Of a stretch of 64,000 nt of DNA, positions 17,855-35,384 are shown one piece after another. A program made the translations under genes and the position numbers. The notes beneath the pieces were generated by a model. That model did no database searches. It saw only the letters and a program-made list of their open reading frames with translations, and was not told where the DNA came from. The DNA lies in the NCBI GenBank assembly GCA_964019425.1, contig OZ025802.1, forward strand, positions 62,001-126,000, read 5' to 3'. The DNA comes from Flectonema sp. DT1601. Its lineage: Eukaryota > Euglenozoa > Diplonemea > Diplonemida > Diplonemidae. Every line of letters starts with the position of its first letter. Position 1 is the first letter of the stretch.

Positions 17855-18187
17855 TTAGATGGAGCTTCCCAACTTCTTCATCACCTTACCCAACTTCATT
17901 GCGACGTCAGTGTCTCCGTCAAGCTCAATCTTTCCCTCCATGAACAGACCCATAGGATCGGCCTTTCCTCCGGCCAACTCAACGAAAACAGCCTCGTCCA
18001 TCTTGAATGAAGCGGCGGCGTCCTCACACTTTCCCTTGTAGGCCTTGCATGCCTTCAAGTCAATCACGTATGAAACACCAGTGTCTGGGAACTCGTAGGT
18101 GATGATCTCGTTAACCATCTTGGCGGCCTCCTTACCAACTGAGGTGTTGAGGGCTGCGGACATCTTCTGGAAGATTGCGTCGGCCAT
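17855..18187 (-). CDS. SCP2 sterol-carrier domain protein, copy 1
   Basis: 110 residues, single exon, wholly one SCP2 domain (Pfam SCP2 type). Diagnostic parts: the N-terminal helix MADAIFQKMSAALNTS, the strands YEFPDTGVSYVIDLK and YKGKCEDAAASFKMDEA, the helix FVELAGGKADPMGLFMEGK, and the closing DTDVAMKLGKVMKKL. SCP2 domains bind sterols and other lipids in a hydrophobic tunnel. The C-terminus is GSSI, not a peroxisomal SKL-type signal, so it is probably cytosolic. Start context TCTAAAATGG is shared by the whole family. Its codons are more GC-rich than those of neighbours, suggesting high expression. Upstream is the 'class II' leader (gtgagtgagctgataaatgc), shared with copy 10. It lacks the paired dyads of class I copies. 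The spacer motif sits at 18388-18407 with one base change. Confidence 0.92.
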   Translation of the reverse strand: MADAIFQKMSAALNTSVGKEAAKMVNEIITYEFPDTGVSYVIDLKACKAYKGKCEDAAASFKMDEAVFVELAGGKADPMGLFMEGKIELDGDTDVAMKLGKVMKKLGSSI

Positions 18188-18387
18188 TTTAGATTAAAGT
18201 GGTGAGTGAGCTGATAAATGCTGAGAGAGGGAATGATAGATAAACAAGTCGGAAATACAACAACTGAAATGAAGCACTCCGATAACCACGTCAAGAATTC
18301 TCCAGTCTATCTTCATTCGTACATTCTGAAGAAAGTAAATAAAATACATCTCAAGGAAGCTGTTCAATTCCATCAACTAAAACTCTT

Positions 18388-18407
18388 GAGAGGTGGTGTG
18401 CCTACTC
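18388..18407 (-). promoter_or_regulatory. SCP2 spacer motif (one mismatch)
   Basis: Minus-strand consensus GAGTAGGTACACCACCTCTC; here the GTAC core reads GCAC. About 200 bp upstream of copy 1. The flanks differ completely from other spacers, so the motif itself looks constrained. Confidence 0.6.
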
Positions 18408-18677
18408 CAAGAACAATAAAAGCAGCTCAAATAATATAAGAACGACACTTTTAACAATAGTTGTTCACGCACACAGAGAATAACGAGAATAAAAAGTTTT
18501 GACTTTACTTTTCACAATAAAAAAACCGATTTCCAAACCACAAAAGACACCTACTCAGCTTATCTAAAATTGAAATTTCAGAACTGGTTTCCTTCTTCAG
18601 TAATCAGATAGGTGTAGTTATGGTATTTCACACCAAATAATCTTTCAAACTAAAAAATATTCACCATTGTCGACCAT

Positions 18678-19010
18678 TTACATTGAGCTTCCCAACTTCT
18701 TCATCACCTTACCCAACTTCATTGCGACGTCAGTGTCTCCGTCAAGCTCAATCTTTCCCTCCATGAACAGACCCATAGGATCGGCCTTTCCTCCGGCTAA
18801 CTCAACGAAAACAGCTTCGTCCATCTTGAATGAAGCGGCAGCGTCCTCACACTTTCCCTTGTAGGCCTTGCATGCCTTCAAGTCAATCACGTATGAAACA
18901 CCAGTGTCTGGGAACTCGTAGGTGATGATCTCGTTAACCATCTTGGCGGCCTCCTTACCAACTGAGGTGTTGAGGGCTGCGGACATCTTCTGGAAGATTG
19001 CGTCGGCCAT
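18678..19010 (-). CDS. SCP2 protein, copy 2
   Basis: Identical to copy 1 except that the last residue is Met (GSSM), because the codon before the stop differs. The 3' flank is also unlike the other copies. The promoter is class I: dyad pair at 19107-19147. Confidence 0.92.
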   Translation of the reverse strand: MADAIFQKMSAALNTSVGKEAAKMVNEIITYEFPDTGVSYVIDLKACKAYKGKCEDAAASFKMDEAVFVELAGGKADPMGLFMEGKIELDGDTDVAMKLGKVMKKLGSSM

Positions 19011-19106
19011 TTTAGATTAAAGTGGTGGATGAAGATAAGAAGCTGTTGAGGTGAGAAAGTGAGAAGTCTGACTACCAACACGGAAACCAATCGACTCAAT
19101 ACAAAC

Positions 19107-19147
19107 ACATCACTTGTGGTTAGAGTGATGTCTACCAGCTACTGGTA
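19107..19147 (-). promoter_or_regulatory. Paired dyads upstream of SCP2 copy 2
   Basis: On the plus strand ACATCAC, 11 nt, GTGATGT, one base, then TACCAG-CTA-CTGGTA. Both inverted repeats are perfect. The first spacer contains TTGTGGTTAGA. They lie about 100-140 bp upstream of the ATG and suit binding of dimeric factors or an RNA stem in the leader. Confidence 0.6.
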
Positions 19148-19297
19148 TTGGATTGCTAAAGGGAGGAGGTCACACAAAGAGACTCATCAAATGTGAAAAG
19201 GTCGTCACATTTTATTTTGCAGGGATGAAGACATTCATTGCGTCACTCAAATGACACTGCGACTGACTTAATAATATCAGAAAGTGTTCTTTACTAC

Positions 19298-19317
19298 GAG
19301 AGGTGGTGTACCTACTC
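19298..19317 (-). promoter_or_regulatory. SCP2 spacer motif
   Basis: Exact GAGTAGGTACACCACCTCTC, about 290 bp upstream of copy 2. Confidence 0.6.
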
Positions 19318-19416
19318 GATTCAGACTCCAGCACTTGAAGTCCTCAACTTCGAATCTCAAAATATAATTCAATTCCTCATTGCCTTATTTCAGTGATGCG
19401 CAACTTAAAAGATTTA

Positions 19417-19749
19417 TTAGATGGAGCTTCCCAACTTCTTCATCACCTTACCCAACTTCATTGCGACGTCAGTGTCTCCGTCAAGCTCAATCTTTCCCTC
19501 CATGAACAGACCCATAGGATCGGCCTTTCCTCCGGCTAACTCAACGAAAACAGCTTCGTCCATCTTGAATGAAGCGGCAGCGTCCTCACACTTTCCCTTG
19601 TAGGCCTTGCATGCCTTCAAGTCAATCACGTATGAAACACCAGTGTCTGGGAACTCGTAGGTGATGATCTCGTTAACCATCTTGGCGGCCTCCTTACCAA
19701 CTGAGGTGTTGAGGGCTGCGGACATCTTCTGGAAAATTGCGTCGGCCAT
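19417..19749 (-). CDS. SCP2 protein, copy 3
   Basis: Protein identical to copy 1. Class I promoter with the dyads at 19846-19886. Its 3' region (ending in TTAAGTTGCGCATCACTGAAA on the coding strand) is shared with copies 5, 6, 8, 12, 13, 14 and 15. Confidence 0.92.
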   Translation of the reverse strand: MADAIFQKMSAALNTSVGKEAAKMVNEIITYEFPDTGVSYVIDLKACKAYKGKCEDAAASFKMDEAVFVELAGGKADPMGLFMEGKIELDGDTDVAMKLGKVMKKLGSSI

Positions 19750-19845
19750 TTTAGATTAAAGTGGTGAGTGAAGATAAAAAGCTGTTGAGGGGAGAAAGTG
19801 AGAAGTCTGATTACCAACACGGAAACCAATCGACTCAATACAAAC

Positions 19846-19886
19846 ACATCACTTGTGGTTAGAGTGATGTCTACCAGCTACTGGTA
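19846..19886 (-). promoter_or_regulatory. Paired dyads upstream of SCP2 copy 3
   Basis: Same two perfect inverted repeats as upstream of copy 2. Confidence 0.6.
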
Positions 19887-19988
19887 TTGGATTGCTAAAG
19901 GGAGGAGATCACACAAAGAGACTCGACAAGACTGAAAAGGTCGCTACATTTTTAATACTTCATCAGCAGTAGTAAGCATCTCAATTAT

Positions 19989-20008
19989 GAGAGGTGGTGT
20001 ACCTACTC
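19989..20008 (-). promoter_or_regulatory. SCP2 spacer motif
   Basis: Exact copy in a spacer whose flanks (after about 19930) are unrelated to the standard class I spacer. This supports the motif as the conserved part. Confidence 0.65.
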
Positions 20009-20167
20009 AAAAACATAAAAGAAGCACCCTAAGAGTTTAGGACTACGACAGCTGTTGTTTATAAAAGTATAGCAACTACTACATTATCAAAACACATCAC
20101 AGAATCCGAATATAAATAATTTCTGAAATCAATCGCATTCCACTTCGACCTGATAACTGTTCCTCAT

Positions 20168-20500
20168 TTAGATGGAGCTTCCCAACTTCTTCATCACCTT
20201 ACCCAACTTCATTGCGACGTCAGTGTCTCCGTCGAGCTCAATCTTTCCCTCCATGAACAGACCCATAGGATCGGCCTTTCCTCCGGCCAACTCAACGAAA
20301 ACAGCTTCGTCCATCTTGAATGAAGCGGCGGCGTCCTCACACTTTCCCTTGTAGGCCTTGCATGCCTTCAAGTCAATCACGTATGAAACACCAGTGTCTG
20401 GGAACTCGTAGGTGATGATCTCGTTAACCATCTTGGCGGCCTCCTTACCAACTGAGGTGTTGAGGGCTGCGGACATCTTCTGGAAAATTGCGTCGGCCAT
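20168..20500 (-). CDS. SCP2 protein, copy 4
   Basis: Protein identical to copy 1. The first ~40 bp upstream match class I but then diverge; the paired dyads are missing. Its 3' flank is also unique. Confidence 0.92.
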   Translation of the reverse strand: MADAIFQKMSAALNTSVGKEAAKMVNEIITYEFPDTGVSYVIDLKACKAYKGKCEDAAASFKMDEAVFVELAGGKADPMGLFMEGKIELDGDTDVAMKLGKVMKKLGSSI

Positions 20501-20684
20501 TTTAGATTAAAGTGGTGGATGAAGATAAGAAGCTGTTGAGAGTGACAATAAGTTTCACAATAACCTACAACTATAACTATTAATGCAAACAAACTCATAG
20601 CGCTATTTGATCTGTTTTGAAATAATGGATCACAAAGAATATCACAATCATAAGTAGAGTTCAACAAAAACAAAAGAACACAGA

Positions 20685-20704
20685 GAGAGGTGGTGTACCT
20701 ACTC
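20685..20704 (-). promoter_or_regulatory. SCP2 spacer motif
   Basis: Exact copy, about 185 bp upstream of copy 4, in an otherwise unique spacer. Confidence 0.65.
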
Positions 20705-20921
20705 TCTAGATAAAAGTGAACGTGAGGGGAAATACTTCAATGATTTCCTTACTGTCGATTAGCTGCTTTCTTATAATCAAATCGAAGGTGACGATATCCT
20801 CAAGTTATTTGGGTGACGTACCACAACAGATACTTTGAGAGGTCATCAAGTACTGATAATCTCAAAATATAATTCAATTCCTCATTGCCTTATTTCAGTG
20901 ATGCGCAACTTAAAAGATTTA

Positions 20922-21254
20922 TTAGATGGAGCTTCCCAACTTCTTCATCACCTTACCCAACTTCATTGCGACGTCAGTGTCTCCGTCAAGCTCAATCTTT
21001 CCCTCCATGAACAGACCCATAGGATCGGCCTTTCCGCCGGCCAACTCAACGAAAACAGCTTCGTCCATCTTGAATGAAGCGGCAGCGTCCTCACACTTTC
21101 CCTTGTAGGCCTTGCATGCCTTCAAGTCAATCACGTATGAAACACCAGTGTCTGGGAACTCGTAGGTGATGATCTCGTTAACCATCTTGGCGGCCTCCTT
21201 ACCAACTGAGGTGTTGAGGGCTGCGGACATCTTCTGGAAAATTGCGTCGGCCAT
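20922..21254 (-). CDS. SCP2 protein, copy 5
   Basis: Protein identical to copy 1, with a private synonymous change (TCCGCCGGC on the plus strand near 21035). Class I promoter, dyads at 21351-21391. Confidence 0.92.
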   Translation of the reverse strand: MADAIFQKMSAALNTSVGKEAAKMVNEIITYEFPDTGVSYVIDLKACKAYKGKCEDAAASFKMDEAVFVELAGGKADPMGLFMEGKIELDGDTDVAMKLGKVMKKLGSSI

Positions 21255-21350
21255 TTTAGATTAAAGTGGTGGGTGAAGATAAGAAGCTGTTGAGGGGAGA
21301 AAGTGAGAAGCCTGACTACCAACACCAAAACCAATCGACTCAATACAAAC

Positions 21351-21391
21351 ACATCACTTGTGGTTAGAGTGATGTCTACCAGCTACTGGTA
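21351..21391 (-). promoter_or_regulatory. Paired dyads upstream of SCP2 copy 5
   Basis: Same pair of inverted repeats as copy 2. Confidence 0.6.
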
Positions 21392-21541
21392 TTGGATTGT
21401 TAAAGGGAGGAGATCACACAAAGAGACTCATCAAATGTGAAAAGGTCGTCACATTGTATTTTGCAGGGATGAAGACATTCATTGCGTCACTCAGATGACA
21501 CTGCGACTGACTTAATAATATCAGAAAGTGTTCTTTACTAC

Positions 21542-21561
21542 GAGAGGTGGTGTACCTACTC
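21542..21561 (-). promoter_or_regulatory. SCP2 spacer motif
   Basis: Exact copy, about 290 bp upstream of copy 5. Confidence 0.6.
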
Positions 21562-21660
21562 GATTCAGACTCCAGCACTTGAAGTCCTCAACTTCGAATC
21601 TCAAAATATAATTCAATTCCTCATTGCCTTATTTCAGTGATGCGCAACTTAAAAGATTTA

Positions 21661-21993
21661 TTAGATGGAGCTTCCCAACTTCTTCATCACCTTACCCAAC
21701 TTCATTGCGACGTCAGTGTCTCCGTCGAGCTCAATCTTTCCCTCCATGAACAGACCCATAGGATCGGCCTTTCCTCCGGCCAACTCAACGAAAACAGCCT
21801 CGTCCATCTTGAATGAAGCGGCGGCGTCCTCACACTTTCCCTTGTAGGCCTTGCATGCCTTCAAGTCAATCACGTATGAAACACCAGTGTCTGGGAACTC
21901 GTAGGTGATGATCTCGTTAACCATCTTGGCGGCCTCCTTACCAACTGAGGTGTTGAGGGCTGCGGACATCTTCTGGAAAATTGCGTCGGCCAT
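21661..21993 (-). CDS. SCP2 protein, copy 6
   Basis: Protein identical to copy 1. The upstream flank (22000-22144) is nearly identical to that of copy 9, including the tail of the sulfatase gene, showing that this copy belongs to a duplicated SCP2-plus-sulfatase-tail block. Neither spacer motif nor dyads are present upstream. Confidence 0.92.
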   Translation of the reverse strand: MADAIFQKMSAALNTSVGKEAAKMVNEIITYEFPDTGVSYVIDLKACKAYKGKCEDAAASFKMDEAVFVELAGGKADPMGLFMEGKIELDGDTDVAMKLGKVMKKLGSSI

Positions 21994-22144
21994 TTTAGAT
22001 TAAAGTGGTGAGTGAGCTGATAAATGCTGAGAGAAAATGAGGTCAAGAGAACGGGTACAGAAATATTACTTCTTCTGCGTACGAGGTAAAAGGTGTAAAT
22101 AGCAAGAACAAAACAAAATAAGAAAGTTTAAACGACAACAGTGT

Positions 22145-22531
22145 TTAAGTGTTCCATCCCTCAACTACTTCTGTGAGATAATTTCGACTCTCAATGAGAA
22201 TCTGATTGTAAGAGGAGTCACCAGCAACACTTCTTTGATACGCAGGAAGATCAAAATTAGTTCCAACATCAGTCGTTAGATTATATAGTTCCTCCCCTCC
22301 GATCTCAGATAGATTTGGTCTAAGTGTTGTAGTATTCCAAGAAAACCAAGCAGTGTATCGATAATTAGAAGTACGCATTGTGTATCCCATAAAAGACATG
22401 TTTGTTTGTGGAGTAGTGACGCAGGCATTAGCGTTGCACATTTTCCAACCAGACTTCGTGATATTACAATCACATCTTGCGATCTAACTGTAAGCTCTCT
22501 TTTCACTCAGAGCTGGATTATCGAAGACAGG
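22145..22531 (-). pseudogene. Duplicated sulfatase C-terminal fragment
   Basis: Nearly identical to the last ~125 codons of the sulfatase at 24460-25974 and ending at the same stop position. It has a 3-base deletion and an in-frame TAG where the parent has a Gln codon (AYSQIA), so it cannot be translated through. It is joined at about 22531 to a truncated SCP2 copy. The very high identity marks a recent duplication. Confidence 0.85.
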
Positions 22532-22827
22532 AACTTCATTGCGACGTCAGAGTCTCCGTCGAGCTCAATCTTTCCCTCCATGAACAGAGCCATAGGATCG
22601 ACCATTCCTCCGGCCAAATTAATGAAAACAGCCTCGTCCATCTTTAATGAAGCGGCGGCGTCTTCACACTTTCCCTTGTAGGCCTTGCATGCCTTCAAGT
22701 CAAACACGTATGAAACACCAGTGTCTGGGATTTCGCAGGTGATGATCTCGTTAACCATCTTGGCGGCCTCCTTACCAACTGAGGTGTTGAGGGCTGAGGA
22801 CATCTTCTGGAAAAATGCGTCGGCCAT
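22507..22827 (-). pseudogene. Chimeric, decaying SCP2 copy 7
   Basis: The first ~98 residues are SCP2 but carry about a dozen replacements (for example MADAFFQKMSS, TCEIPDTG, FINLAGGMVDPMALF), in contrast to complete protein identity elsewhere. After DSDVAMK it runs into sulfatase sequence out of frame (FLSSIIQL, stop), losing the final helix. The promoter is intact class I with dyads at 22926-22966. Likely non-functional, with relaxed selection since the fusion. Confidence 0.85.
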
Positions 22828-22925
22828 TTTAGATTAAAGTGGTGGGTGAGTTGATAAGAAGCTGTTGAGGGGAGAAAGTGAGAAGTCTGACTACCAACAC
22901 GGAAACCAATCGACTCAATACAAAC

Positions 22926-22966
22926 ACATCACTTGTGGTTAGAGTGATGTCTACCAGCTACTGGTA
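22926..22966 (-). promoter_or_regulatory. Paired dyads upstream of the chimeric copy
   Basis: Same pair of inverted repeats as copy 2, still perfect although the gene is decaying. Confidence 0.6.
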
Positions 22967-23116
22967 TTGGATTGTTAAAGGGAGGGGATCACACAAAGAG
23001 ACTCATCAAATGTGAAAAGGCCGTCACATTTTATTTTGCAGGGATGAAGACATTCATTGCGTCACTCAGATGACACTGCGACCGACTTAATAATATCAGA
23101 AAGTGTTCTTTACTAC

Positions 23117-23136
23117 GAGAGGTGGTGTACCTACTC
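23117..23136 (-). promoter_or_regulatory. SCP2 spacer motif
   Basis: Exact copy, about 290 bp upstream of the chimeric copy. Confidence 0.6.
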
Positions 23137-23236
23137 GATTCAGACTCCAGCACTTGAAGTCCTCAACTTCGAATCTCAAAATATAATTCAATTCCTCATT
23201 GCCTTATTTCAGTGATGCGCAACTTAAAAGATTTGA

Positions 23237-23569
23237 TTAGATGGAGCTTCCCAACTTCTTCATCACCTTACCCAACTTCATTGCGACGTCAGTGTCTCCG
23301 TCGAGCTCAATCTTTCCCTCCATGAACAGACCCATAGGATCGGCCTTTCCTCCGGCCAACTCAACGAAAACAGCCTCGTCCATCTTGAATGAAGCGGCGG
23401 CGTCCTCACACTTTCCCTTGTAGGCCTTGCATGCCTTCAAGTCAATCACGTATGAAACACCAGTGTCTGGGAATTCGTAGGTGATGATCTCGTTAACCAT
23501 CTTGGCGGCCTCCTTACCAACTGAGGTGTTGAGGGCTGCGGACATCTTCTGGAAGATTGCGTCGGCCAT
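23237..23569 (-). CDS. SCP2 protein, copy 8
   Basis: Protein identical to copy 1. Class I promoter (dyads 23664-23704). The leader has TTTAGTCTAAAATGG in place of the usual TTTAATCTAAAATGG. Confidence 0.92.
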   Translation of the reverse strand: MADAIFQKMSAALNTSVGKEAAKMVNEIITYEFPDTGVSYVIDLKACKAYKGKCEDAAASFKMDEAVFVELAGGKADPMGLFMEGKIELDGDTDVAMKLGKVMKKLGSSI

Positions 23570-23663
23570 TTTAGACTAAAGTGGTGGATGAAGATAAGAA
23601 GCTTTTGAGGGAAGAAAGATAAGTCTGACTACCAACACGGAAACCAATCGACTCAATACAAAC

Positions 23664-23704
23664 ACATCACTTGTGGTTAGAGTGATGTCTACCAGCTACT
23701 GGTA
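23664..23704 (-). promoter_or_regulatory. Paired dyads upstream of SCP2 copy 8
   Basis: Same pair of inverted repeats as copy 2. Confidence 0.6.
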
Positions 23705-23854
23705 TTGGATTGCTAAAGGGAGGAGATCACACAAAGAGACTCATCAAATGTGAAAAGGTCGTCGCATTTTATTTTGCAGGGATGAAGACATTCATTGCGT
23801 CACTCAGATGACACTGCGACTGACTTAATAATATCAGAAAGTGTTCTTTACTAC

Positions 23855-23874
23855 GAGAGGTGGTGTACCTACTC
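23855..23874 (-). promoter_or_regulatory. SCP2 spacer motif
   Basis: Exact copy, about 285 bp upstream of copy 8. Confidence 0.6.
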
Positions 23875-23973
23875 GATTCAGACTCCAGCACTTGAAGTCC
23901 TCAACTTCGAATCTCAAAATATAATTCAATTCCTCATTGCCTTATTTCAGTGATGCGCAACTTAAAGTTTTAT

Positions 23974-24306
23974 TTAGATGGAGCTTCCTAACTTCTTCAT
24001 CACCTTACCCAACTTCATTGCGACGTCAGTGTCTCCGTCGAGCTCAATCTTTCCCTCCATGAACAGACCCATAGGATCGGCCTTTCCTCCGGCTAACTCA
24101 ACGAAAACAGCCTCGTCCATCTTGAATGAAGCGGCAGCATCCTCACACTTTCCCTTGTAGGCCTTGCATGCCTTCAAGTCAATCACGTATGAAACACCAG
24201 TGTCTGGGAACTCGTAGGTGATGATCTCGTTAACCATCTTGGCGGCCTCCTTACCAACTGAGGTGTTGAGGGCTGCGGACATCTTCTGGAAGATTGCGTC
24301 GGCCAT
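23974..24306 (-). CDS. SCP2 protein, copy 9 (last of cluster A)
   Basis: Protein identical to copy 1. It lies only 153 bp 3' of the sulfatase stop, with a class II-like leader (gtgagtgagctgataaatgc) and no spacer motif or dyads. This is the parent arrangement of the duplicated block around copy 6. Confidence 0.92.
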   Translation of the reverse strand: MADAIFQKMSAALNTSVGKEAAKMVNEIITYEFPDTGVSYVIDLKACKAYKGKCEDAAASFKMDEAVFVELAGGKADPMGLFMEGKIELDGDTDVAMKLGKVMKKLGSSI

Positions 24307-24459
24307 TTTAGATTAAAGTGGTGAGTGAGCTGATAAATGCTGAGAGAAAATGAGGTCAAGAGAACGGGTACAGAAATATTACTTCTTCTGCGTACGAGGT
24401 AAAAGGTGTAGAAATAGCAAGAACAAAACAAAATAAGAAAGTGTAAACGACAACAGTGT

Positions 24460-25974
24460 TTAAGTGTTCCATCCCTCAACTACTTCTGTGAGATAATTTC
24501 GACTCTCAATGAGAATCTGATTGTAAGAGGAGTCACCAGCAACACTTCTTTGATACGCAGGAAGATCAAAATTAGTTCCAACATCAGTCGTTAGATTATA
24601 TAGTTCCTCCCCTCCGATCTCAGATAGATTTGGTCTAAGTGTTGTAGTATTCCAAGAAAACCAAGCAGTGTATCGATAATTAGAAGTACGCATTGTGTAT
24701 CCCATGAAAGACATGTTTGTTTGTGGAGTAGTGACGCAGGCATTAGCGTTGCACATTTTCCAACCAGACTTCGTGATATTACAATCACATCTTGCGATCT
24801 GACTGTAAGCTCTCTTTTCACTCAGAGCCGAAGGATCATCGAAGACAGGAGCTAGTGACGTACCCTGAACTGAGTTTTGAACTTCTTCAAATCCACACAA
24901 CTCAACCAACGTTTTATATAAATCAATCAACTCCGCCAACACAAATGACTTCCCAGTTCGCTTCCATGGTACTTTTATTATCAACGGTACGTGTGTTCCC
25001 AGTTCTGTGTCAACCTTCTTTGACCATTCATTCTGCTCACCAAGATGATATCCATGGTCGCTATGAAATACAACAATCGTATTGTTTGCGACAGAACTTT
25101 TGTTCAACATTGATAAAGCTTGACCCATAATGTGATCACTGTAAGTGACGCTAGCGTAGTACCAAGATCGGTAAGTAGTACTTCTGTTTGTTGGAACAAT
25201 ACAGGAACCGCATCCCTTATCGGGATCTAATATGTCTCCATTCATCCAACTGTTAGAGACGAATGGAACATTGACTGGTGGTGCAGTATTTACAGGAGGG
25301 TTTACTGTGTGGTAGGGATACAGTTCTGATCCCCAAAATCCTTTCGGTACTCGATATGGAACATGTGGTCTGTGCAGACCAATAGAAACCCAAAACGGAG
25401 TGTTCGTTTCAACCGAACTATTTATCGCCATTCTAAGTCGAAATAATCCTTCGTGAAGAGCCAAGTCTTCATCGGTAAGTTTATTAGTACTGTTTTCAGT
25501 AATACCGCAATAGTTACTATTCAAATCAATAAAGTCTCCATCAGAACAGTAAAACCATTTTGTTTGGTTTGACGGATACGACCAAGAAATCGGGTCATCC
25601 ATTCCATCGTGGAATACCTTCCCCGCACTACTTGTGAAGTATCCTTTATTCTTGAAATACTGAGGCATAGTAATCCAGCTCTCACCTCCGGGAGCTTGTC
25701 TGAATGTCGTTAAAAAGTTTAAAGCCCTCGTTCTGTCTGGTCTTCTACCTGACATGAATGAGTTCCTTGAAGGAGCACAATATGAGAACTGGGTGTATGT
25801 TTTCATAAATTGTATTCCTTCTGATGCAAGTTGATCCAAGTTGGGGGTTTTCATGAAAGTTTGATCGTAGCAACCCAACTGTGGACGCATATCGTCAATT
25901 ACTAAGTATAAAATATTCGGAGACTTCCTACTCAACGACATCACCAACGTTGTTGTCAGTAGTGTCAGCATCAT
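24460..25974 (-). CDS. Secreted sulfatase, iduronate-2-sulfatase type
   Basis: 504 residues, single exon. An N-terminal hydrophobic segment (MMLTLLTTTLVMSL) is a probable signal peptide. The sulfatase core follows at once: NILYLVIDDMRPQLGCYD holds the metal-binding Asp pair; SYCAPSRNSFMSGRRPDRTR contains the C-x-P-x-R site (Cys66) matured to formylglycine; later GLHRPHVPY and HSDHGYHLGEQNEWSKK match iduronate-2-sulfatase-like enzymes. Several N-x-S/T sites suit secretion or lysosomal delivery. Substrate is unknown, probably a sulfated polysaccharide. Its 3' end has been copied to 22145-22531. It sits between the two SCP2 clusters on the same strand; no functional link is shown. Confidence 0.88.
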   Translation of the reverse strand: MMLTLLTTTLVMSLSRKSPNILYLVIDDMRPQLGCYDQTFMKTPNLDQLASEGIQFMKTYTQFSYCAPSRNSFMSGRRPDRTRALNFLTTFRQAPGGESWITMPQYFKNKGYFTSSAGKVFHDGMDDPISWSYPSNQTKWFYCSDGDFIDLNSNYCGITENSTNKLTDEDLALHEGLFRLRMAINSSVETNTPFWVSIGLHRPHVPYRVPKGFWGSELYPYHTVNPPVNTAPPVNVPFVSNSWMNGDILDPDKGCGSCIVPTNRSTTYRSWYYASVTYSDHIMGQALSMLNKSSVANNTIVVFHSDHGYHLGEQNEWSKKVDTELGTHVPLIIKVPWKRTGKSFVLAELIDLYKTLVELCGFEEVQNSVQGTSLAPVFDDPSALSEKRAYSQIARCDCNITKSGWKMCNANACVTTPQTNMSFMGYTMRTSNYRYTAWFSWNTTTLRPNLSEIGGEELYNLTTDVGTNFDLPAYQRSVAGDSSYNQILIESRNYLTEVVEGWNT

Positions 25975-26027
25975 TATTATTGTGAACCTGATTTTATGAA
26001 AAATGAATTATTTCTTACATTCCAAAC

Positions 26028-26063
<36 letters not shown>

Positions 26064-26744
26064 TCATTTTTAGCAAACCAAACAAAAACTAAATACCCCC
26101 AGTCGGGTGAAGACATTCTAAGTTAGGATTTTGCTCCCCCCCAATCACCGAGTTTTAAAACACTTTTGAAAGAAACAGAACAAGGAATCTGTTTCTATAA
26201 AGGTGAGACCATGAAACAACAACATTAAGCAGCCTTCTCAATACGTAGACTACGATAAGGACAAGAAGCATTTTTTTCAAATCGACTTTCGGATGGAAAA
26301 ATTTCAGCTCAAAAAAAGTGAGCAAAAAGGTATTCCAACCATTCTTACAACATGAATGTGTTGAAAACATCATCTCTCTATTTTCATAAGTTTGCTGTGC
26401 TAAAAGTATATTTCTGTACCAAGTTAGTGGCATTGCTAAGTAATCCGAGTAGGTAGTTTGAGATAGTCCCTCAAGCCTCACGACAATTGGCTTTTTTTTT
26501 TTTTTTTTTTTTTTTTGCAAAAATAAAATGAAAATAATACTTTTCTTGCAAAAGGCTAGGGGAGGAAGAACCATAAAAAACAGAATAAGAAACAATCACA
26601 AGCGAAGTGTTCCGTTTTGACTTCCACCGCCACGGAGCCTGGTCAGCATGACCATCGGCATTCTCAAGCAATGTGTTTGTTTCGTTTATTCGCTGAGAAT
26701 TAGTTACTTTAGCCAACCAGCAGTTGCTGGAGTGACGTCTTTGT
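25975..26744. other. Spacer with long poly(T) runs
   Basis: T runs at about 26032-26059 and 26490-26516. Open frames through it are short or cross the homopolymers, and I see no supported gene. Confidence 0.45.
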
Positions 26745-27806: not shown

Positions 27807-28862
27807 TTGAATTTGTTTAACTGAATGACAATTATTATTATTATCTCCTTCGACCTTATTAATGATTACCTTCTTCTTCGTTAATATGTGTTGTGCCTTG
27901 AGAGGATAATAAATATTAGTTGTGAATTAAACAAAATAAACAACCCAATGCTGCATCACACTGACAACAATAAATGGTTCCCTCGGCAGCAGGCACTATG
28001 GATGTGGTTATCAAATATCTGATACAACAGTGAATCAATGATCAAATTTCATTACGAACGAGAGTGGCAGACGAACTGCCATTTCCTTGAAACCAACTTC
28101 CAACTACATCTGAAGGATGATAAGATCTCTTCAGAGCCTCAATAATGAGCAAAGTCGTCTGAACAAAAAATATTGTTGCCTTCAGCAGAGAGCCCGTGCA
28201 ACCAAAAGCCAGCGCCACAGGATAACCAACACACAGCAAGAATCAATGGATTTGGAAGGGGAGAACGCGGAACAGAAGAATAATTCAAAAATAAAAAAAA
28301 CAGTAAAAACGAAACACAGCTCCAAAATTGAAGTTTGGACCCAAGAGAAGGGTGCAACTTCGATTAGTGCCAAACATTCCGCCAGTCGGATGTTGTGAAC
28401 GTACCAGCAGACACAAACAACTAAACTCACAAAGCAACAACTTTAACTTCAAACAACTCATCGAATGAAGAACAGACTTGCTAACAAAACGAGTCCTTTC
28501 ATTTGGAGAACAACAAACAGTCAAGACCCGCAACAGATGACGAGAAACTAACATGACTGAAGTCCCTTTTTAAGTGCAGTTTATGGATCTTCCTTAATAT
28601 GGCAGAACACAACTAAACTAAACACAATTAAAGATTACACGCATTGAACTGCTAACTGACACGTGCGAGAGGTGCACTTTTAGAGACAGTTTTTCACTGC
28701 AGAGCTCGGCTATTGTGCCGAATGAAACTGAAAAAATAAAAAGAAAAGGGAAAACGTCAGGAATAGGGAAATTAAAAACCCTCAAAACCTGCTTCAGGAC
28801 TCTTGGTGCGCAGAGCAAATATATTTGTCGCTGGCAGATGTCAATATCAAAGACAGAGTGAC
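27807..28862. other. 1.06 kb spacer with ambiguous coding signal
   Basis: Both strands have plausible short frames over 28042-28400. On the minus strand an acceptor TTTTTTGTTCAG precedes a 38-codon terminal frame ending SSATLVRNEI. On the plus strand 28117-28398 encodes 93 lysine-rich residues starting MIRSLQSLNN. I could not decide between them and call neither. Confidence 0.35.
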
Positions 28863-30913
28863 TTACAATTCGAAGCCAAGTGAACGAGCAATCGTCTCCA
28901 TGTCTTTGTCACCTCTTCCGGAAACACAAATCACAACGTGCTGATCACGTGGAAGACTTCTCGCAGTCTCAATTCCCTTCCACACTGCATGCGATGATTC
29001 GAGAGCCGGTAAGATCTGTTTTTGTTTTAATTTTTATGTTTCACTGGAATACTCTGAATGATGACAAGTTAGTTACTGTAAAGAAACATAAAACCATAAA
29101 CAAGTAATAAATAACATACTCCTTCAGTCCTTGTGAGTAACTTGAATCCATTAAGAGCATCATCATCACTACATGCGATGTATCTAGCGCGGCCAGTATC
29201 CTGAAGGAAGGAGTGCTCTGGTCCAACTGCAGGGTAGTCGAGACCAGCAGAGATCGAGTGAGTGTCCGACACCTGACCTTCTTCAGTTTGAAGAAGTTTG
29301 GTGCGGGCTCCGTGAAGCCATCCGGTAGTGCCGTGAGTGAGAGTTGCGGAGTGGAGTTCTTTTGCGTCACCTCCAGCTTCAACACCAATTAAATCAACTC
29401 CGTCATCACATACGAAGGCATCAAATGCACCGATGCAATTACTACCTCCTCCGACACATGCAACAACAGCATTAGGAAGAGCACCATCGTGACCAGCCAT
29501 GAATTGTTCTCTAGCCTCTCGTGAGATAACACTTTGGAAGTCTCTTACAAGTGTTGGGAATGGATGCGGACCAACAACACTTCCAATCAGATAATGGGAA
29601 TCAGAATTAGCTGCCCAGTCTCTAAGAGCTTCATTAACAGCGGCATTAAGTGTACGACCACCTGAAGTAGCTGGAACTACTTTAGTACCCATTGATTCCA
29701 TTCTAAGAACGTTGAGTCTCTGTCTTTGAGTATCCTTCTCTCCCATGTAAACAGTTCCATCCATTCCGAAAAGTGCACACACGGTAGCTGTAGCAACACC
29801 GTGCTGACCAGCTCCTGTCTCAGCGATGATTCGTTTCTTCCCGAGTTCCTTGGCTACGAGAGCCTGTCCGATTCCGTTGTTAATTTTATGAGCACCTCCG
29901 TGAAGTAAATCTTCTCTCTTTAACCAAATCTTTGCTCCCAAGTTGGATTTTCCATCCTTGTCAAGCTCGTTTCTGATGAACGCAGTCAGCCTTTCAGCAT
30001 CGTACAAGAATGTTGGTCTTCCAGAGTACTCCTTGTTCCACTTATCAACAGTGGCTAAGAAAGCTTCATCTGCCTGTAATTCGATGTACTTCTTCTCTAA
30101 TTCGATTAGGTTCGGCATCAGAATTTCAGGTAAAAACTGTCCACCGAATTTCCCGAAGTAGGCTGGAATGCGCTTCTTGACAGCGCGTGTCATCTTACGG
30201 ATGCGATCACCGTTCTTAATTTTATTGACTTCAACACTTGATGATAGATCAATGCAACTGATGTTTGGAATACTGATAGCTGATTCAACATTACTGTCGG
30301 TAATACCACCAGCAAGGAACACCATCAGGTTTCTGTTAACAATCGAATCCAAGTTTGGAATTGTTGACCAGTCAAATGGCTTTCCAGAACCACCCAAGAG
30401 ATCAGAGTTCTTACTATCCTTGTGATCGATACAAATACCTCTTAGGGAGCTTCCATTTTCCTTTGGGAGGGAACTTGCGAATTCTTCTGCTGAGACCTTT
30501 CCCTCAATCGAAATCGTAAAAATAATAAAAGCATCTGAAGCAGCCTCCGCCAAAGACTTCTGTACGACGTTGAATTCCTCGGTGTTGTAGCCGTAGAGTT
30601 GGACTCCGTGCATGTTTGTTTCTTTCATAACATTGCAAATGTTTGAAGCGTCGTCGACAATCGCCATTTCTCCCTTGCGCTGAAAAACTCCAACAACTGC
30701 AGGAAGGGTTTTAAAAATCTCGCACTTCGAAGTATTATTTGCTTTAGTCCTTGCTACCTCAACCATACTAGATACCTCCTTCAAGTTGTTACCCATGTAT
30801 CTATGACTCTTCTCAGCGAATACAATTCCCATAAAGTCAACTCCCTCTCTGACGCAGGAGATGACCTGGTTGCGGGTCTTCAGCCCGCAGATCTTTATCA
30901 GCTTTCCAGACAT
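28863..30913 (-). CDS. TrpF-TrpB fusion: phosphoribosylanthranilate isomerase / tryptophan synthase beta
   Basis: Two exons (29120-30913 and 28863-29015) joined by a 104-nt intron, donor GTATGT, acceptor ACAG, phase 0; 648 residues. Residues 1-245 are phosphoribosylanthranilate isomerase: KICGLKT with the catalytic Cys, [19 protein letters not shown], the catalytic Asp region GICIDHKDS and AGGITDSNV. From 249 the chain is tryptophan synthase beta: [29 protein letters not shown] with the PLP lysine (343), [13 protein letters not shown] and the phosphate loop [10 protein letters not shown]. The splice restores the conserved [13 protein letters not shown]; reading through the intron instead would truncate the enzyme. 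It covers two non-consecutive steps of tryptophan synthesis; TrpC and TrpA are not in the window. No plastid or mitochondrial presequence is visible, so it is probably cytosolic. Confidence 0.93.
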
Positions 30914-31238
30914 TTCTTTAGATATTGATTAAACTGTTAAATTAAATTTAGTAGCATTCTAAAGCAACATTTCCAAATACTCGACAACAACTGGTCATTC
31001 ATAACTTCGATCTGTTTGTTAAAAAGTTATGTAAAGGAAATCAAAACATTCACATCCTAATACCAACACGTGCCCGGGTGTGGAGAGCGTGATGAAAACA
31101 ACCAAATAAAATGAAACGAAAAAATGCTAAACGCTAAAAGAAAAACAAAAACACAACGAAGAGAGGAAATCAATAAAAACAGCGATGGATCTTTTGCATG
31201 GAACCCATCTGGCCGTTACGAGTAACACGAGGAGATTC
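30914..31238. other. Spacer between TrpF-TrpB and SCP2 cluster B
   Basis: AT-rich promoter region of the fusion gene and 3' side of copy 10. The SCP2 spacer motif is absent. Nothing else recognised. Confidence 0.4.
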
Positions 31239-31571
31239 TTAGATGGAGCTTCCCAACTTCTTCATCACCTTACCCAACTTCATTGCGACGTCAGTGTCTC
31301 CGTCGAGCTCAATCTTTCCCTCCATGAACAGACCCATAGGATCGGCCTTTCCTCCGGCCAACTCAACGAAAACAGCCTCGTCCATCTTGAATGAAGCGGC
31401 AGCGTCCTCACACTTTCCCTTGTAGGCCTTGCATGCCTTCAAGTCAATCACGTATGAAACACCAGTGTCTGGGAACTCGTAGGTGATGATCTCGTTAACC
31501 ATCTTGGCGGCCTCCTTACCAACTGAGGTGTTGAGGGCTGCGGACATCTTCTGGAAAATTGCGTCGGCCAT
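31239..31571 (-). CDS. SCP2 protein, copy 10 (start of cluster B)
   Basis: Protein identical to copy 1. Its 5' flank matches copy 1 for about 95 bp (class II leader with gggaatgatagataaacaag), then diverges. Both are the 3'-most gene of their cluster, which suggests that the clusters themselves arose by block duplication. Confidence 0.92.
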   Translation of the reverse strand: MADAIFQKMSAALNTSVGKEAAKMVNEIITYEFPDTGVSYVIDLKACKAYKGKCEDAAASFKMDEAVFVELAGGKADPMGLFMEGKIELDGDTDVAMKLGKVMKKLGSSI

Positions 31572-31827
31572 TTTAGATTAAAGTGGTGAGTGAGCTGATA
31601 AATGCTGAGAGAGGGAATGATAGATAAACAAGTCGGAAATACAACAACTGAAATGAAGCACTTCAATACTCACAAGAAAACACTCTAATTATGATGTGCA
31701 TCTCTACGACTCATGTCAGAACTATAGCCTCGTGTACTGATGGTTGTGAAATAATTTAATCTTGACTGGCAACAATGCACAAACAGTCTCACTTCACTCA
31801 ATAAGAAAGCTACTCAATTAGTACAAA

Positions 31828-31847
31828 GAGAGGTGGTGTACCTACTC
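31828..31847 (-). promoter_or_regulatory. SCP2 spacer motif
   Basis: Exact copy about 255 bp upstream of copy 10, in a unique spacer. Confidence 0.65.
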
Positions 31848-32099
31848 CATTTACAGTGAAAGAGAACAACCGAGAGAGGGATGACTATCTTTGAATACCA
31901 AACACTGATATCAATAATAATAAATCACGTCGGCTACGATGTATACTCAACAGCGATTAAGGCAAAGCAACCTAGATAGCATATCCAGTTTATATTACTG
32001 ATTTCAATAACCTTTTCAGTAAACTGGTTAACTTCTCTGCGACTCGAAAACGATGTCGAGGAACTCAAAATGTTGTTATTTCCTCTTCAGAAGTTTTAT

Positions 32100-32432
32100 T
32101 TAGATGGAGCTTCCCAACTTCTTCATCACCTTACCCAACTTCATTGCGACGTCAGTGTCTCCGTCGAGCTCAATCTTTCCCTCCATGAACAGACCCATAG
32201 GATCGGCCTTTCCTCCGGCCAACTCAACGAAAACAGCCTCGTCCATCTTGAATGAAGCGGCGGCGTCTTCACACTTTCCCTTGTAGGCCTTGCATGCCTT
32301 CAAGTCAATCACGTATGAAACACCAGTGTCTGGGAACTCGTAGGTGATGATCTCGTTAACCATCTTGGCGGCCTCCTTACCAACTGAGGTGTTGAGGGCT
32401 GCGGACATCTTCTGGAAAATTGCGTCGGCCAT
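32100..32432 (-). CDS. SCP2 protein, copy 11
   Basis: Protein identical to copy 1. Class I promoter, dyads at 32529-32569. The 3' flank is unique except for AAGTTTTATTTAG next to the stop, shared with copy 9. Confidence 0.92.
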   Translation of the reverse strand: MADAIFQKMSAALNTSVGKEAAKMVNEIITYEFPDTGVSYVIDLKACKAYKGKCEDAAASFKMDEAVFVELAGGKADPMGLFMEGKIELDGDTDVAMKLGKVMKKLGSSI

Positions 32433-32528
32433 TTTAGATTAAAGTGGTGAGTGAAGATAAGAAGCTGTTGAGGGAAGAAAGTGAGAAGTCTGACTACCAA
32501 CACGAAAACCAATCGACTCAATACAAAC

Positions 32529-32569
32529 ACATCACTTGTGGTTAGAGTGATGTCTACCAGCTACTGGTA
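32529..32569 (-). promoter_or_regulatory. Paired dyads upstream of SCP2 copy 11
   Basis: Same pair of inverted repeats as copy 2. Confidence 0.6.
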
Positions 32570-32719
32570 TTGGATTGTTAAAGGGAGGAGATCACACAAA
32601 GAGACTCATCAAATGTGAAAAAGTCGTCACATTTTATTTTGCAGGGATGAAGACATTCATTGCGTCACTCAGATGACACTGCGACTGACTTAATAATATC
32701 AGAAAGTGTTCTTTACTAC

Positions 32720-32739
32720 GAGAGGTGGTGTACCTACTC
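32720..32739 (-). promoter_or_regulatory. SCP2 spacer motif
   Basis: Exact copy, about 288 bp upstream of copy 11. Confidence 0.6.
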
Positions 32740-32839
32740 GATTCAGACTCCAGCACTTGAAGTCCTCAACTTCGAATCTCAAAATATAATTCAATTCCTC
32801 ATTGCCTTATTTCAGTGATGCGCAACTTAAAATATTTGA

Positions 32840-33172
32840 TTAGATGGAGCTTCCCAACTTCTTCATCACCTTACCCAACTTCATTGCGACGTCAGTGTCT
32901 CCGTCGAGCTCAATCTTTCCCTCCATGAACAGACCCATAGGATCGGCCTTTCCTCCGGCCAACTCAACGAAAACAGCCTCGTCCATCTTGAATGAAGCGG
33001 CAGCGTCCTCACACTTTCCCTTGTAGGCCTTGCATGCCTTCAAGTCAATCACGTATGAAACACCAGTGTCTGGGAATTCGTAGGTGATGATCTCGTTAAC
33101 CATCTTGGCGGCCTCCTTACCAACTGAGGTGTTGAGGGCTGCGGACATCTTCTGGAAAATTGCGTCGGCCAT
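32840..33172 (-). CDS. SCP2 protein, copy 12
   Basis: Protein identical to copy 1. Class I promoter, dyads at 33269-33309; the leader has one change (CACTTGAATC for CACTTTAATC). Shares the GAATTC synonymous variant with copy 8 in the other cluster. Confidence 0.92.
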   Translation of the reverse strand: MADAIFQKMSAALNTSVGKEAAKMVNEIITYEFPDTGVSYVIDLKACKAYKGKCEDAAASFKMDEAVFVELAGGKADPMGLFMEGKIELDGDTDVAMKLGKVMKKLGSSI

Positions 33173-33268
33173 TTTAGATTCAAGTGGTGAGTGAAGATAA
33201 GAAGCTGTTGAGGGGAGAAAGTGAGTAGTCTGACTACCAACACGGAAACCAATCGACTCAATACAAAC

Positions 33269-33309
33269 ACATCACTTGTGGTTAGAGTGATGTCTACCAG
33301 CTACTGGTA
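33269..33309 (-). promoter_or_regulatory. Paired dyads upstream of SCP2 copy 12
   Basis: Same pair of inverted repeats as copy 2. Confidence 0.6.
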
Positions 33310-33459
33310 TTGGATTGCTAAAGGGAGGAGATCACACAAAGAGACTCATCAAATGTGAAAAGGTCGTCGCATTTTATTTTGCAGGGATGAAGACATTCAT
33401 TGCGTCACTCAGATGACACTGCGACTGACTTAATAATATCAGAAAGTGTTCTTTACTAC

Positions 33460-33479
33460 GAGAGGTGGTGTACCTACTC
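33460..33479 (-). promoter_or_regulatory. SCP2 spacer motif
   Basis: Exact copy, about 288 bp upstream of copy 12. Confidence 0.6.
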
Positions 33480-33578
33480 GATTCAGACTCCAGCACTTGA
33501 AGTCCTCAACTTCGAATCTCAAAATATAATTCAATTCCTCATTGCCTTATTTCAGTGATGCGCAACTTAAAGATTTGA

Positions 33579-33911
33579 TTAGATGGAGCTTCCCAACTTC
33601 TTCATCACCTTACCCAACTTCATTGCGACGTCAGTGTCTCCGTCGAGCTCAATCTTTCCCTCCATGAACAGACCCATAGGATCGGCCTTTCCTCCGGCCA
33701 ACTCAACGAAAACAGCCTCGTCCATCTTGAATGAAGCGGCAGCGTCCTCACACTTTCCCTTGTAGGCCTTGCATGCCTTCAAGTCAATCACGTATGAAAC
33801 ACCAGTGTCTGGGAACTCGTAGGTGATGATCTCGTTAACCATCTTGGCAGCCTCCTTACCAACTGAGGTGTTGAGGGCTGCGGACATCTTCTGGAAAATT
33901 GCGTCGGCCAT
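33579..33911 (-). CDS. SCP2 protein, copy 13
   Basis: Protein identical to copy 1; a private synonymous change near 33848. Class I promoter with a 6-bp shorter leader, dyads at 34006-34046. Confidence 0.92.
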   Translation of the reverse strand: MADAIFQKMSAALNTSVGKEAAKMVNEIITYEFPDTGVSYVIDLKACKAYKGKCEDAAASFKMDEAVFVELAGGKADPMGLFMEGKIELDGDTDVAMKLGKVMKKLGSSI

Positions 33912-34005
33912 TTTAGATTAAAGTGGTGGGTTGATAAGAAGCTGTTGAGGGGAGAAAGTGAGAAGTCTGATTACCAACACGAAAACCAATCGACTCAATA
34001 CAAAC

Positions 34006-34046
34006 ACATCACTTGTGGTTAGAGTGATGTCTACCAGCTACTGGTA
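34006..34046 (-). promoter_or_regulatory. Paired dyads upstream of SCP2 copy 13
   Basis: Same pair of inverted repeats as copy 2. Confidence 0.6.
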
Positions 34047-34191
34047 TTGGATTGTTAAAGGGAGGAGATCACACAAAGAGACTCATCAAATGTGAAAAGG
34101 TCGTCACATTTTATTTTGCAGGGATGAAGACATTCATTGCGTCACTCAGATGACACTGCGACTGACTTCTTTCTGACTTACTCTTTACTAC

Positions 34192-34211
34192 GAGAGGTGG
34201 TGTACCTACTC
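34192..34211 (-). promoter_or_regulatory. SCP2 spacer motif
   Basis: Exact copy. The flanking sequence just 5' of it on the plus strand (34166-34185) differs from other class I spacers while the motif is unchanged. Confidence 0.6.
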
Positions 34212-34311
34212 GATTCAGACTCCAGCACTTGAAGTCCTCAACTTCGAATCTCAAAATATAATTCAATTCCTCATTGCCTTATTTCAGTGATGCGCAACTT
34301 AAAATATTTGA

Positions 34312-34644
34312 TTAGATGGAGCTTCCCAACTTCTTCATCACCTTACCCAACTTCATTGCGACGTCAGTGTCTCCGTCGAGCTCAATCTTTCCCTCCATGA
34401 ACAGACCCATAGGATCGGCCTTTCCTCCGGCCAACTCAACGAAAACAGCCTCGTCCATCTTGAATGAAGCGGCAGCGTCCTCACACTTTCCCTTGTAGGC
34501 CTTGCATGCCTTCAAGTCAATCACGTATGAAACACCAGTGTCTGGGAACTCGTAGGTGATGATCTCGTTAACCATCTTGGCGGCCTCCTTACCAACTGAG
34601 GTGTTGAGGGCTGCGGACATCTTCTGGAAAATTGCGTCGGCCAT
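34312..34644 (-). CDS. SCP2 protein, copy 14
   Basis: Protein identical to copy 1. Class I promoter, dyads at 34741-34781. Leader nearly identical to copy 11. Confidence 0.92.
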   Translation of the reverse strand: MADAIFQKMSAALNTSVGKEAAKMVNEIITYEFPDTGVSYVIDLKACKAYKGKCEDAAASFKMDEAVFVELAGGKADPMGLFMEGKIELDGDTDVAMKLGKVMKKLGSSI

Positions 34645-34740
34645 TTTAGATTAAAGTGGTGAGTGAAGATAAGAAGCTGTTGAGGGAAGAAAGTGAGAAG
34701 TCTGACTACCAACACGAAAACCAATCGACTCAATACAAAC

Positions 34741-34781
34741 ACATCACTTGTGGTTAGAGTGATGTCTACCAGCTACTGGTA
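34741..34781 (-). promoter_or_regulatory. Paired dyads upstream of SCP2 copy 14
   Basis: Same pair of inverted repeats as copy 2. Confidence 0.6.
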
Positions 34782-34931
34782 TTGGATTGTTAAAGGGAGG
34801 AGATCACACAAAGAGACTCATCAAATGTGAAAAGGTCGTCACATTTTATTTTGCAGGGATGAAGACATTCATTGCGTCACTCAGATGACACTGCGACTGA
34901 CTTAATAATATCAGAAAGTGTTCTTTACTAC

Positions 34932-34951
34932 GAGAGGTGGTGTACCTACTC
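34932..34951 (-). promoter_or_regulatory. SCP2 spacer motif
   Basis: Exact copy, about 288 bp upstream of copy 14. Confidence 0.6.
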
Positions 34952-35051
34952 GATTCAGACTCCAGCACTTGAAGTCCTCAACTTCGAATCTCAAAATATA
35001 ATTCAATTCCTCATTGCCTTATTTCAGTGATGCGCAACTTAAAAGATTTGA

Positions 35052-35384
35052 TTAGATGGAGCTTCCCAACTTCTTCATCACCTTACCCAACTTCATTGCG
35101 ACGTCAGTGTCTCCGTCGAGCTCAATCTTTCCCTCCATGAACAGACCCATAGGATCGGCCTTTCCTCCGGCCAATTCAACGAAAACAGCCTCGTCCATCT
35201 TGAATGAAGCGGCAGCGTCCTCACACTTTCCCTTGTAGGCCTTGCATGCCTTCAAGTCAATCACGTATGAAACACCAGTGTCTGGGAACTCGTAGGTGAT
35301 GATCTCGTTAACCATCTTGGCGGCCTCCTTACCAACTGAGGTGTTGAGGGCTGCGGACATCTTCTGGAAAATTGCGTCGGCCAT
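35052..35384 (-). CDS. SCP2 protein, copy 15 (5'-most of cluster B)
   Basis: Protein identical to copy 1. Only about 40 bp of the class I leader (ggatgaagataagaagctgttgagg) remain; beyond that the sequence is unique, without dyads or spacer motif. If this copy is expressed, neither element is essential for it. Confidence 0.9.
   Translation of the reverse strand: MADAIFQKMSAALNTSVGKEAAKMVNEIITYEFPDTGVSYVIDLKACKAYKGKCEDAAASFKMDEAVFVELAGGKADPMGLFMEGKIELDGDTDVAMKLGKVMKKLGSSI

Follow-up and report, generated by a model that had tools for sequence, protein, structure and literature searches.

SCP2 array and the genes around it

We analyzed a 64,000-nt stretch of the diplonemid Flectonema sp. DT1601 (assembly GCA_964019425.1, contig OZ025802.1, positions 62,001 to 126,000 of the forward strand; hereafter the window, whose positions are counted from its first letter). 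It carries a tandem array of SCP2 genes, and a 20-nt hairpin element recurs between them. Fourteen intact open reading frames (ORFs) of 333 nt are found on the minus strand where the original prediction had put them, from 17855-18187 to 35052-35384, and they encode an identical product of 110 residues. Only copy 2 (18678-19010) differs, at its last residue, ending with SSM instead of SSI. One broken copy is present besides, at 22507-22827. The array forms two minus-strand blocks. The first in the direction of transcription (31239-35384) holds six intact copies, which are copy 15 (35052-35384), copy 14 (34312-34644), copy 13 (33579-33911), copy 12 (32840-33172), copy 11 (32100-32432) and copy 10 (31239-31571). 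The second (17855-24306) holds eight intact copies and the broken one, starting with copy 9 (23974-24306) and copy 8 (23237-23569), followed by the broken copy 7, copy 6 (21661-21993), copy 5 (20922-21254), copy 4 (20168-20500), copy 3 (19417-19749), copy 2 and finally copy 1 (17855-18187). The copies are recognized as ORFs and by their identity to each other, and copy 15 also by the SCP2 profile PF02036.

Three other minus-strand ORFs separate the two blocks. The sulfatase (24460-25974, PF00884) and the TrpF-TrpB protein (29069-30913, PF00697 and PF00291) agree with the original prediction, while the third, the WD40-like protein at 26745-27806, stays below the Pfam threshold with 27.1 bits against a cut-off of 200. 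The TrpF and TrpB domains are fused in one ORF of 614 codons, with PRAI followed by PALP.

The variation among the intact copies is almost entirely silent. Fourteen variable sites are found, all at third codon positions, and a single one alters the protein (codon 110 of copy 2). With 79% replacements expected and sites taken as independent, 13 silent changes out of 14 have a probability of about 2e-8. In contrast, the first 288 nt of the broken copy show 13 replacement and 3 silent differences. The intact SCP2 copies are thus maintained by purifying selection, or by conversion from copies that are under selection; the broken copy is not.

About the first 96 codons of the broken copy are kept, after which it runs into sulfatase-derived sequence. 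Directly 3' of it, a minus-strand ORF (22145-22441) repeats the C-terminal 98 residues of the sulfatase without change. Therefore copy 7 was probably broken by a rearrangement having one end inside the sulfatase gene. The region 22145-22827 is a chimeric junction, in which the broken SCP2 copy is joined to a duplicated 3' piece of the sulfatase gene.

The SCP2 protein and its relatives

The array protein matches the SCP2 profile PF02036 over residues 9-104 with 57.1 bits (Pfam cut-off 21.3), and the human MFE-2 SCP2-like domain is its sequence match in the PDB. The AlphaFold2 (AF2) model has a predicted local distance difference test (pLDDT) score of 90. Its best 15 fold matches in the PDB are SCP2 domains except for two alkylsulfatase chains (TMq 0.73-0.89). 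Judged by profile, PDB sequence match and modelled fold, which agree, the protein is an SCP2 domain, as originally claimed. It resembles known SCP2 carriers of the PF02036 family (human MFE-2 SCP2-like domain, rabbit SCP2, Yarrowia SCP2) in family score, modelled fold and small stand-alone form. It differs from them in its 14 near-identical copies in one array and in its C-terminus SSI. The C-terminus of mammalian SCP2 is AKL.

A profile search for relatives, in which 7999 candidates were scored, found 56 proteins. Of the full-length relatives with more than 60% identity, those that carry a readable name are diplonemid, and the distant ones include bacterial and algal SCP2 proteins. Diplonema papillatum is the relative named in full; the label prefixes Rhum and Hpha are read as Rhynchopus humris and Hemistasia phaeocysticola. 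The D. papillatum protein appears under two nearby locus tags, DIPPA_04119 and DIPPA_04123, which hints at an SCP2 cluster in this species too. Three additional SCP2 genes exist in Flectonema outside the array, two on contig C32 and one on contig C71. The paralogue on C32 is duplicated together with a sirtuin-like gene (recognized by eye), at C32:154737 and C32:342191, about 187 kb apart, and both copies end with DAI.

A 20-nt hairpin element in the array spacers

The element GAGTAGGNNNACCACCTCTC is a 20-nt hairpin found once in each of the 12 SCP2-SCP2 spacers, so that 12 of the 14 intact copies carry it. It lies 99-270 nt after the stop codon; the next ATG follows 184-289 nt further on, beyond the likely splice acceptor. 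No match appeared in 100 shuffles of the window. By motif search, the elements are located on the minus strand at 34932-34951 (100 nt 3' of the stop of copy 15), 34192-34211 (copy 14), 33460-33479 (copy 13), 32720-32739 (copy 12) and 31828-31847 (252 nt 3' of copy 11) in the first block. In the second block they are located at 23855-23874 (copy 9), 23117-23136 (copy 8), 21542-21561 (copy 6), 20685-20704 (copy 5), 19989-20008 (copy 4), 19298-19317 (copy 3) and 18388-18407 (270 nt 3' of copy 2, with the loop variant CAC).

Eight of the 12 spacers are 94-100% alike. The other four, following copies 11, 5, 4 and 2, are divergent, down to about 47% identity. Among five spacer representatives, seven of the ten pairs have no common block of at least 12 nt beyond the element, or part of it, and the 17-22 nt before the ATG; in the remaining three pairs there are longer common pieces as well. 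In pairs that include spacer 2 with its loop variant, the shared part of the element is 12-13 nt. The predicted fold consists of GAG, a bulged U, AGG, a seven-base loop NNNACCA, and CCUCUC. The five variants folded alone give the same hairpin with -3.6 to -7.4 kcal/mol. A short stem, a 5' bulge and a partly conserved loop are also features of the iron-responsive element and other bulged hairpins of untranslated regions (UTRs). Unlike these, the element matches no known Rfam family; none reached the gathering threshold in the scan of 17500-36000.

Distribution of the element in the genome

In the assembly (89.5 Mb in 92 contigs), the search for GAGTAGGNNNACCACCTCTC finds 25 exact copies and five that deviate at two positions, but none that deviates at exactly one, while 0.004 exact occurrences are expected from composition. 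These and the following pattern counts are lower bounds. The reversed control gives 69 matches with up to two mismatches, so two-mismatch matches alone are no evidence. The core pattern without mismatch gives 28 matches against 4 in the reversed control. We retained 26 sites, 12 in the array and 14 outside it, the latter at 12 places on 11 contigs, so that several unlinked genes have it beside them. None of the 14 outside sites lies inside an ATG-started ORF of at least 100 codons on either strand; the C11 and C37 sites are covered by same-strand ORFs of 53 and 82 codons, which we regard as spurious. Four of the five two-mismatch matches (C56, C65, C78 and C84) and the core-pattern match on C46 were rejected as members, all being within open frames of 117-1006 codons. 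For the same reason the C84 and C78 matches were dropped as compensating changes. As C84, whose change is judged to be due to chance, was already in the alignment used for pair counts, those counts overstate the covariation. One two-mismatch site outside genes, C2:1485656, has changes that restore pairing (GGG/CCC), and it lies 223 nt from an exact copy.

The element is doubled at two places, C2:1485656 and 1485879 (223 nt apart) and C9:559552 and 560035 (483 nt apart). A dispersed repeat or transposon piece is rejected as its identity: the 150-nt flanks of the outside places are unrelated, except for one 22-nt match.

Genes next to the element

The element is oriented like the neighbouring genes at every one of the 12 outside places. 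The closest stop codon upstream is that of a BioF-like enzyme on C51, 137 nt before the element (best NCBIfam match bioF, 322 bits, below the cut-off of 426 bits), which ends with PSL. An amidohydrolase on C3 (171 nt) ends with GKL, and an AfsA-type hotdog protein on C9 (216 nt, two elements) ends with AKL. A START-domain protein on C16 (228 nt), the SCP2 protein on C71 (232 nt, ending NAI) and an aromatic aminotransferase on C11 (300 nt, ending SRL) follow. At larger distances are PEX11 on C37 (618 nt; 28.3 bits, cut-off 23.8), a DGAT2-type acyltransferase on C14 (932 nt), an SLC25A17/PMP34-PMP47-type carrier on C2 (1086 nt, two elements), a membrane protein on C19 (about 1300 nt) and an MMPL transporter at a second place on C2 (1562 nt). 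The TMEM135 match of the C19 protein is sub-threshold (E 0.029), and we did not accept it beyond a tentative label. At the last place, C15:798933, an exact element has no recognisable gene within about 1.6 kb upstream; its gene is possibly non-coding or intron-rich.

Judged by family, two of the linked proteins are peroxisomal, PEX11 and the carrier. The named relatives of the carrier include SLC25A17/PMP34 and PMP47, and D. papillatum and Hpha proteins are among its best matches. Four soluble linked enzymes end with sequences resembling a peroxisomal targeting signal type 1 (PTS1), of which AKL and SRL are classic, GKL is close and PSL is permissive. BioF is known to be peroxisomal via a PTS1 in fungi and plants (PMC3713238). 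Lipid families are represented by DGAT2, START, MMPL and SCP2. A permissive PTS1 pattern fits 4 of 11 linked genes and 2 of 46 other ORFs (P 0.01, small control), and a stricter one fits 3 of 11 and 1 of 46 (P 0.02, small control). The 11 linked genes exclude the C15 place and include the C19 gene from a joined stretch. The control is a set of 47 ORFs (3 loose and 2 stricter matches) minus the linked C11 gene, which accounts for one of each, and it contains the linked MMPL gene and perhaps spurious ORFs. As the gene list was read after the fact, these P values are guides only.

C-terminus and location of SCP2

The original prediction excluded peroxisomes because the protein ends with GSSI. This exclusion fails, since SSI matches published euglenozoan PTS1 patterns, both S-S-[LIF], which is listed for euglenozoan glycosomal proteins (PMC9512073), and [SAGCNP][RHKSNQ][LIVFAMY], which was used for Paradiplonema (PMC12697944). 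The SSM of copy 2 matches broad PTS1 patterns as well, and neither ending is canonical. With patterns this permissive, import of SCP2 is allowed rather than demonstrated. Some of the relatives end with AKL, AKM or GKM, and the element ties SCP2 to peroxisomal genes. Weighed against the endings of paralogues and relatives that do not fit, we hold the peroxisome to be a somewhat more probable site of SCP2 than the cytosol.

Genome setting

A euglenozoan spliced-leader-like 20-mer, used as a probe, matches 754 places with up to two mismatches and none in the reversed control. The spliced leaders agree with a euglenozoan genome, and the relatives of SCP2 and of the C2 carrier with one that is diplonemid or close to it. 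Many of the matches listed (100 of the 754 places) stand in tandem arrays, two of which are C16:1432460-1446807 (unit about 623 bp) and C20:1248665-1287266 (unit about 610 bp). There are also many isolated matches, which might be retro-inserted mRNAs. About 45 tubulin genes, compared by profile score and not by sequence, form two groups within which the scores are equal or nearly so; they lie singly on many contigs and not in tandem. In trypanosomatids, by contrast, the tubulin genes are arranged in tandem. The trypanosomatid tandem arrays, such as those of tubulin and HSP70, resemble the SCP2 array in having identical genes head to tail in a spliced-leader genome. The differences are that the tubulins here are dispersed and that the SCP2 array keeps one hairpin amid diverging spacers.

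A possible RNA regulon for peroxisomal lipid metabolism

For the most part, diplonemid genes are co-transcribed and trans-spliced, and expression in euglenozoans is not mainly set at transcription initiation (PMC10161547). Coordination is therefore expected at the mRNA level. Hairpins in 3'UTRs with a reported or proposed coordinating role are described in trypanosomes (PMC3728762, PMC4066783). In the present genome, the element beside mostly peroxisome and lipid genes suggests a common control switch acting on RNA. We consider it somewhat more probable than not that a 3'UTR-hairpin RNA regulon serves peroxisomal lipid metabolism, that the array supplies high-dose SCP2 within it, and that SCP2 resides in or at the peroxisome. 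Directly at hand for this explanation are the array, its purifying selection, the element with its distribution and neighbours, and, from a model, the SCP2 fold. The mechanism would be as follows. The array would provide a small, free-standing SCP2 lipid carrier at a high dose. Its copies would be transcribed within a polycistronic transcript, and spliced-leader trans-splicing would release each of them at a putative acceptor, a pyrimidine tract and AG a little more than 30 nt before the ATG. The hairpin, 99-270 nt after the stop, would then be located in the 3'UTR of 12 of the 14 intact copies. A single putative RNA-binding protein would read it and set the stability or translation of the whole gene set jointly. 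The SCP2 array would be the most amplified member of this peroxisomal lipid regulon, and SCP2 would work in or at the peroxisome (glycosome), presumably carrying a lipid in its tunnel.

Several observations weigh against this explanation. Copies 1 and 10 have no element in the 372 and 325 nt searched 3' of them, where their neighbours are other genes. The two SCP2 genes on C32 have none in the stretches searched and are not counted as members. Of the six PEX11 matches in the genome, just one has the element beside it, so the PEX11 genes as a whole are not members either. For five of the 11 assigned genes, the stop is 618-1562 nt upstream of the element, and the C15 place has no recognised gene. 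The covariation rests on one site (C2:1485656), with four of six stem pairs invariant. The PTS1 enrichment is modest and comes from a gene list read after the fact. The C-termini of SCP2 relatives are mixed, some of them (GKK, GAL, NVA, ALL) not fitting, and the Flectonema paralogues end with NAI (C71) and DAI (C32), outside both PTS1 patterns. In addition, a PTS1 is no guarantee of import in Paradiplonema (PMC12697944). Finally, at C71:318732 the SCP2 stop is 232 nt upstream of the element, while an ORF of 179 codons has its ATG just 75 nt downstream.

The last case bears on whether the element belongs to the downstream gene, as part of its 5' leader or promoter. A pyrimidine tract and AG precede the C71 element, and with the ATG 75 nt further on, the element there may sit in the leader of the next gene. 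We thus dropped C71 as proof of a 3' position. The upstream stops more than 600 nt away in 5 of 11 cases also speak for downstream ownership. In the array, however, 184-289 nt separate the element from the next ATG, with the likely acceptor in between. At eight outside places the next ORF of at least 100 codons is 466-1770 nt away; a Phe-rich 110-codon ORF on C11, starting 106 nt from the element, is probably spurious. On C14 and C16 no downstream ORF is found in 1.5 kb. Judged by eye, with no search made, the downstream ORFs do not seem to be peroxisomal. Overall, a 3'UTR position appears likelier than the leader of the next gene, and downstream ownership is improbable. Scarcely better placed is a DNA-level site, such as an origin, a recombination site or a chromatin mark, which for instance could drive the homogenisation of the array. 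It would fit the imperfect palindrome and its retention across unlike spacers. But at the 12 places outside the array the orientation follows the neighbouring genes, the conserved order is asymmetric and includes a bulged T, and the outside sites are single or double without forming arrays.

A more serious alternative, still an unlikely one, is a plain dosage array for an abundant cytosolic SCP2, with the 20-mer as a processing signal, for poly(A) addition or trans-splicing, of abundant mRNAs. The near-identical copies with almost exclusively silent changes are consistent with it, and the tubulin genes likewise fall into two groups of near-equal score. A signal of general use in processing should nevertheless be common, while 26 sites are found in 89.5 Mb, beside a functionally narrow set of genes, and no tubulin place is near any of the 12 outside element places. 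The dosage idea itself, which the original prediction put forward, survives. Ordinary dosage amplification of the array is plausible, given that euglenozoan expression is not mainly set at transcription initiation and given the two near-equal tubulin groups; what lacks support is the exclusion of peroxisomes deduced from GSSI. An assembly artefact with fewer true copies is very improbable. Tandem arrays are often miscounted, but most copies or spacers here have their own variants (distinct patterns of single-nucleotide polymorphisms), five spacer types and the sulfatase fragment interrupt the array, and the assembly has 92 contigs for 89.5 Mb.

Comparison with known systems

The proposed RNA regulon resembles the 3'UTR RNA regulons of trypanosomes (PMC3728762) and the NT8 3'UTR stem-loop (PMC4066783) in its short 3' RNA hairpin, which in PMC3728762 is common to functionally related mRNAs. 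Organism, sequence and gene set are different; in PMC3728762, the main text contains no words beginning with peroxisom or glycosom. In yeast grown on oleate, Pex11 becomes about 12-fold and Ant1 about 17-fold more abundant (PMC12904895), so the linked genes are similar in kind to those of a peroxisome-proliferation response, with PEX11 and a peroxisomal nucleotide carrier as the counterparts. The yeast response uses promoter DNA elements (Oaf1-Pip2), whereas the element here is RNA-like and 3' of genes, which makes this a functional analogy and no homology.

We tentatively extend this comparison to a broader proposal, which is possible but less secure than the regulon itself. Diplonemids might steer peroxisome growth and lipid traffic by an RNA element instead of promoter elements, with a protein binding the 3'UTR hairpin and switching PEX11, the PMP34-type carrier, BioF, several PTS1 enzymes, DGAT2 and SCP2 together. 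If true, diplonemids would achieve after transcription what the oleate response does in yeast and the peroxisome-proliferator response in animals, and the SCP2 array would be the highest-output target of the switch. Among the titles and abstract openings surveyed in the literature, none dealt with a diplonemid 3'UTR element, a peroxisome RNA regulon or an SCP2 array, which is weak evidence of absence. Euglenozoans mostly lack control at transcription initiation, and how they coordinate organelle genes is a question above all in diplonemids, which are among the most abundant marine microeukaryotes (PMC10161547). A rigid 20-nt element together with a short, peroxisome-biased gene list offers a direct experimental handle on it. 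A laboratory diplonemid, Paradiplonema papillatum, has been described as genetically tractable (PMC8611851).

Apart from the SCP2 array, the window contains a perfect tandem array of a 9-bp unit in 15 copies at 11752-11887.

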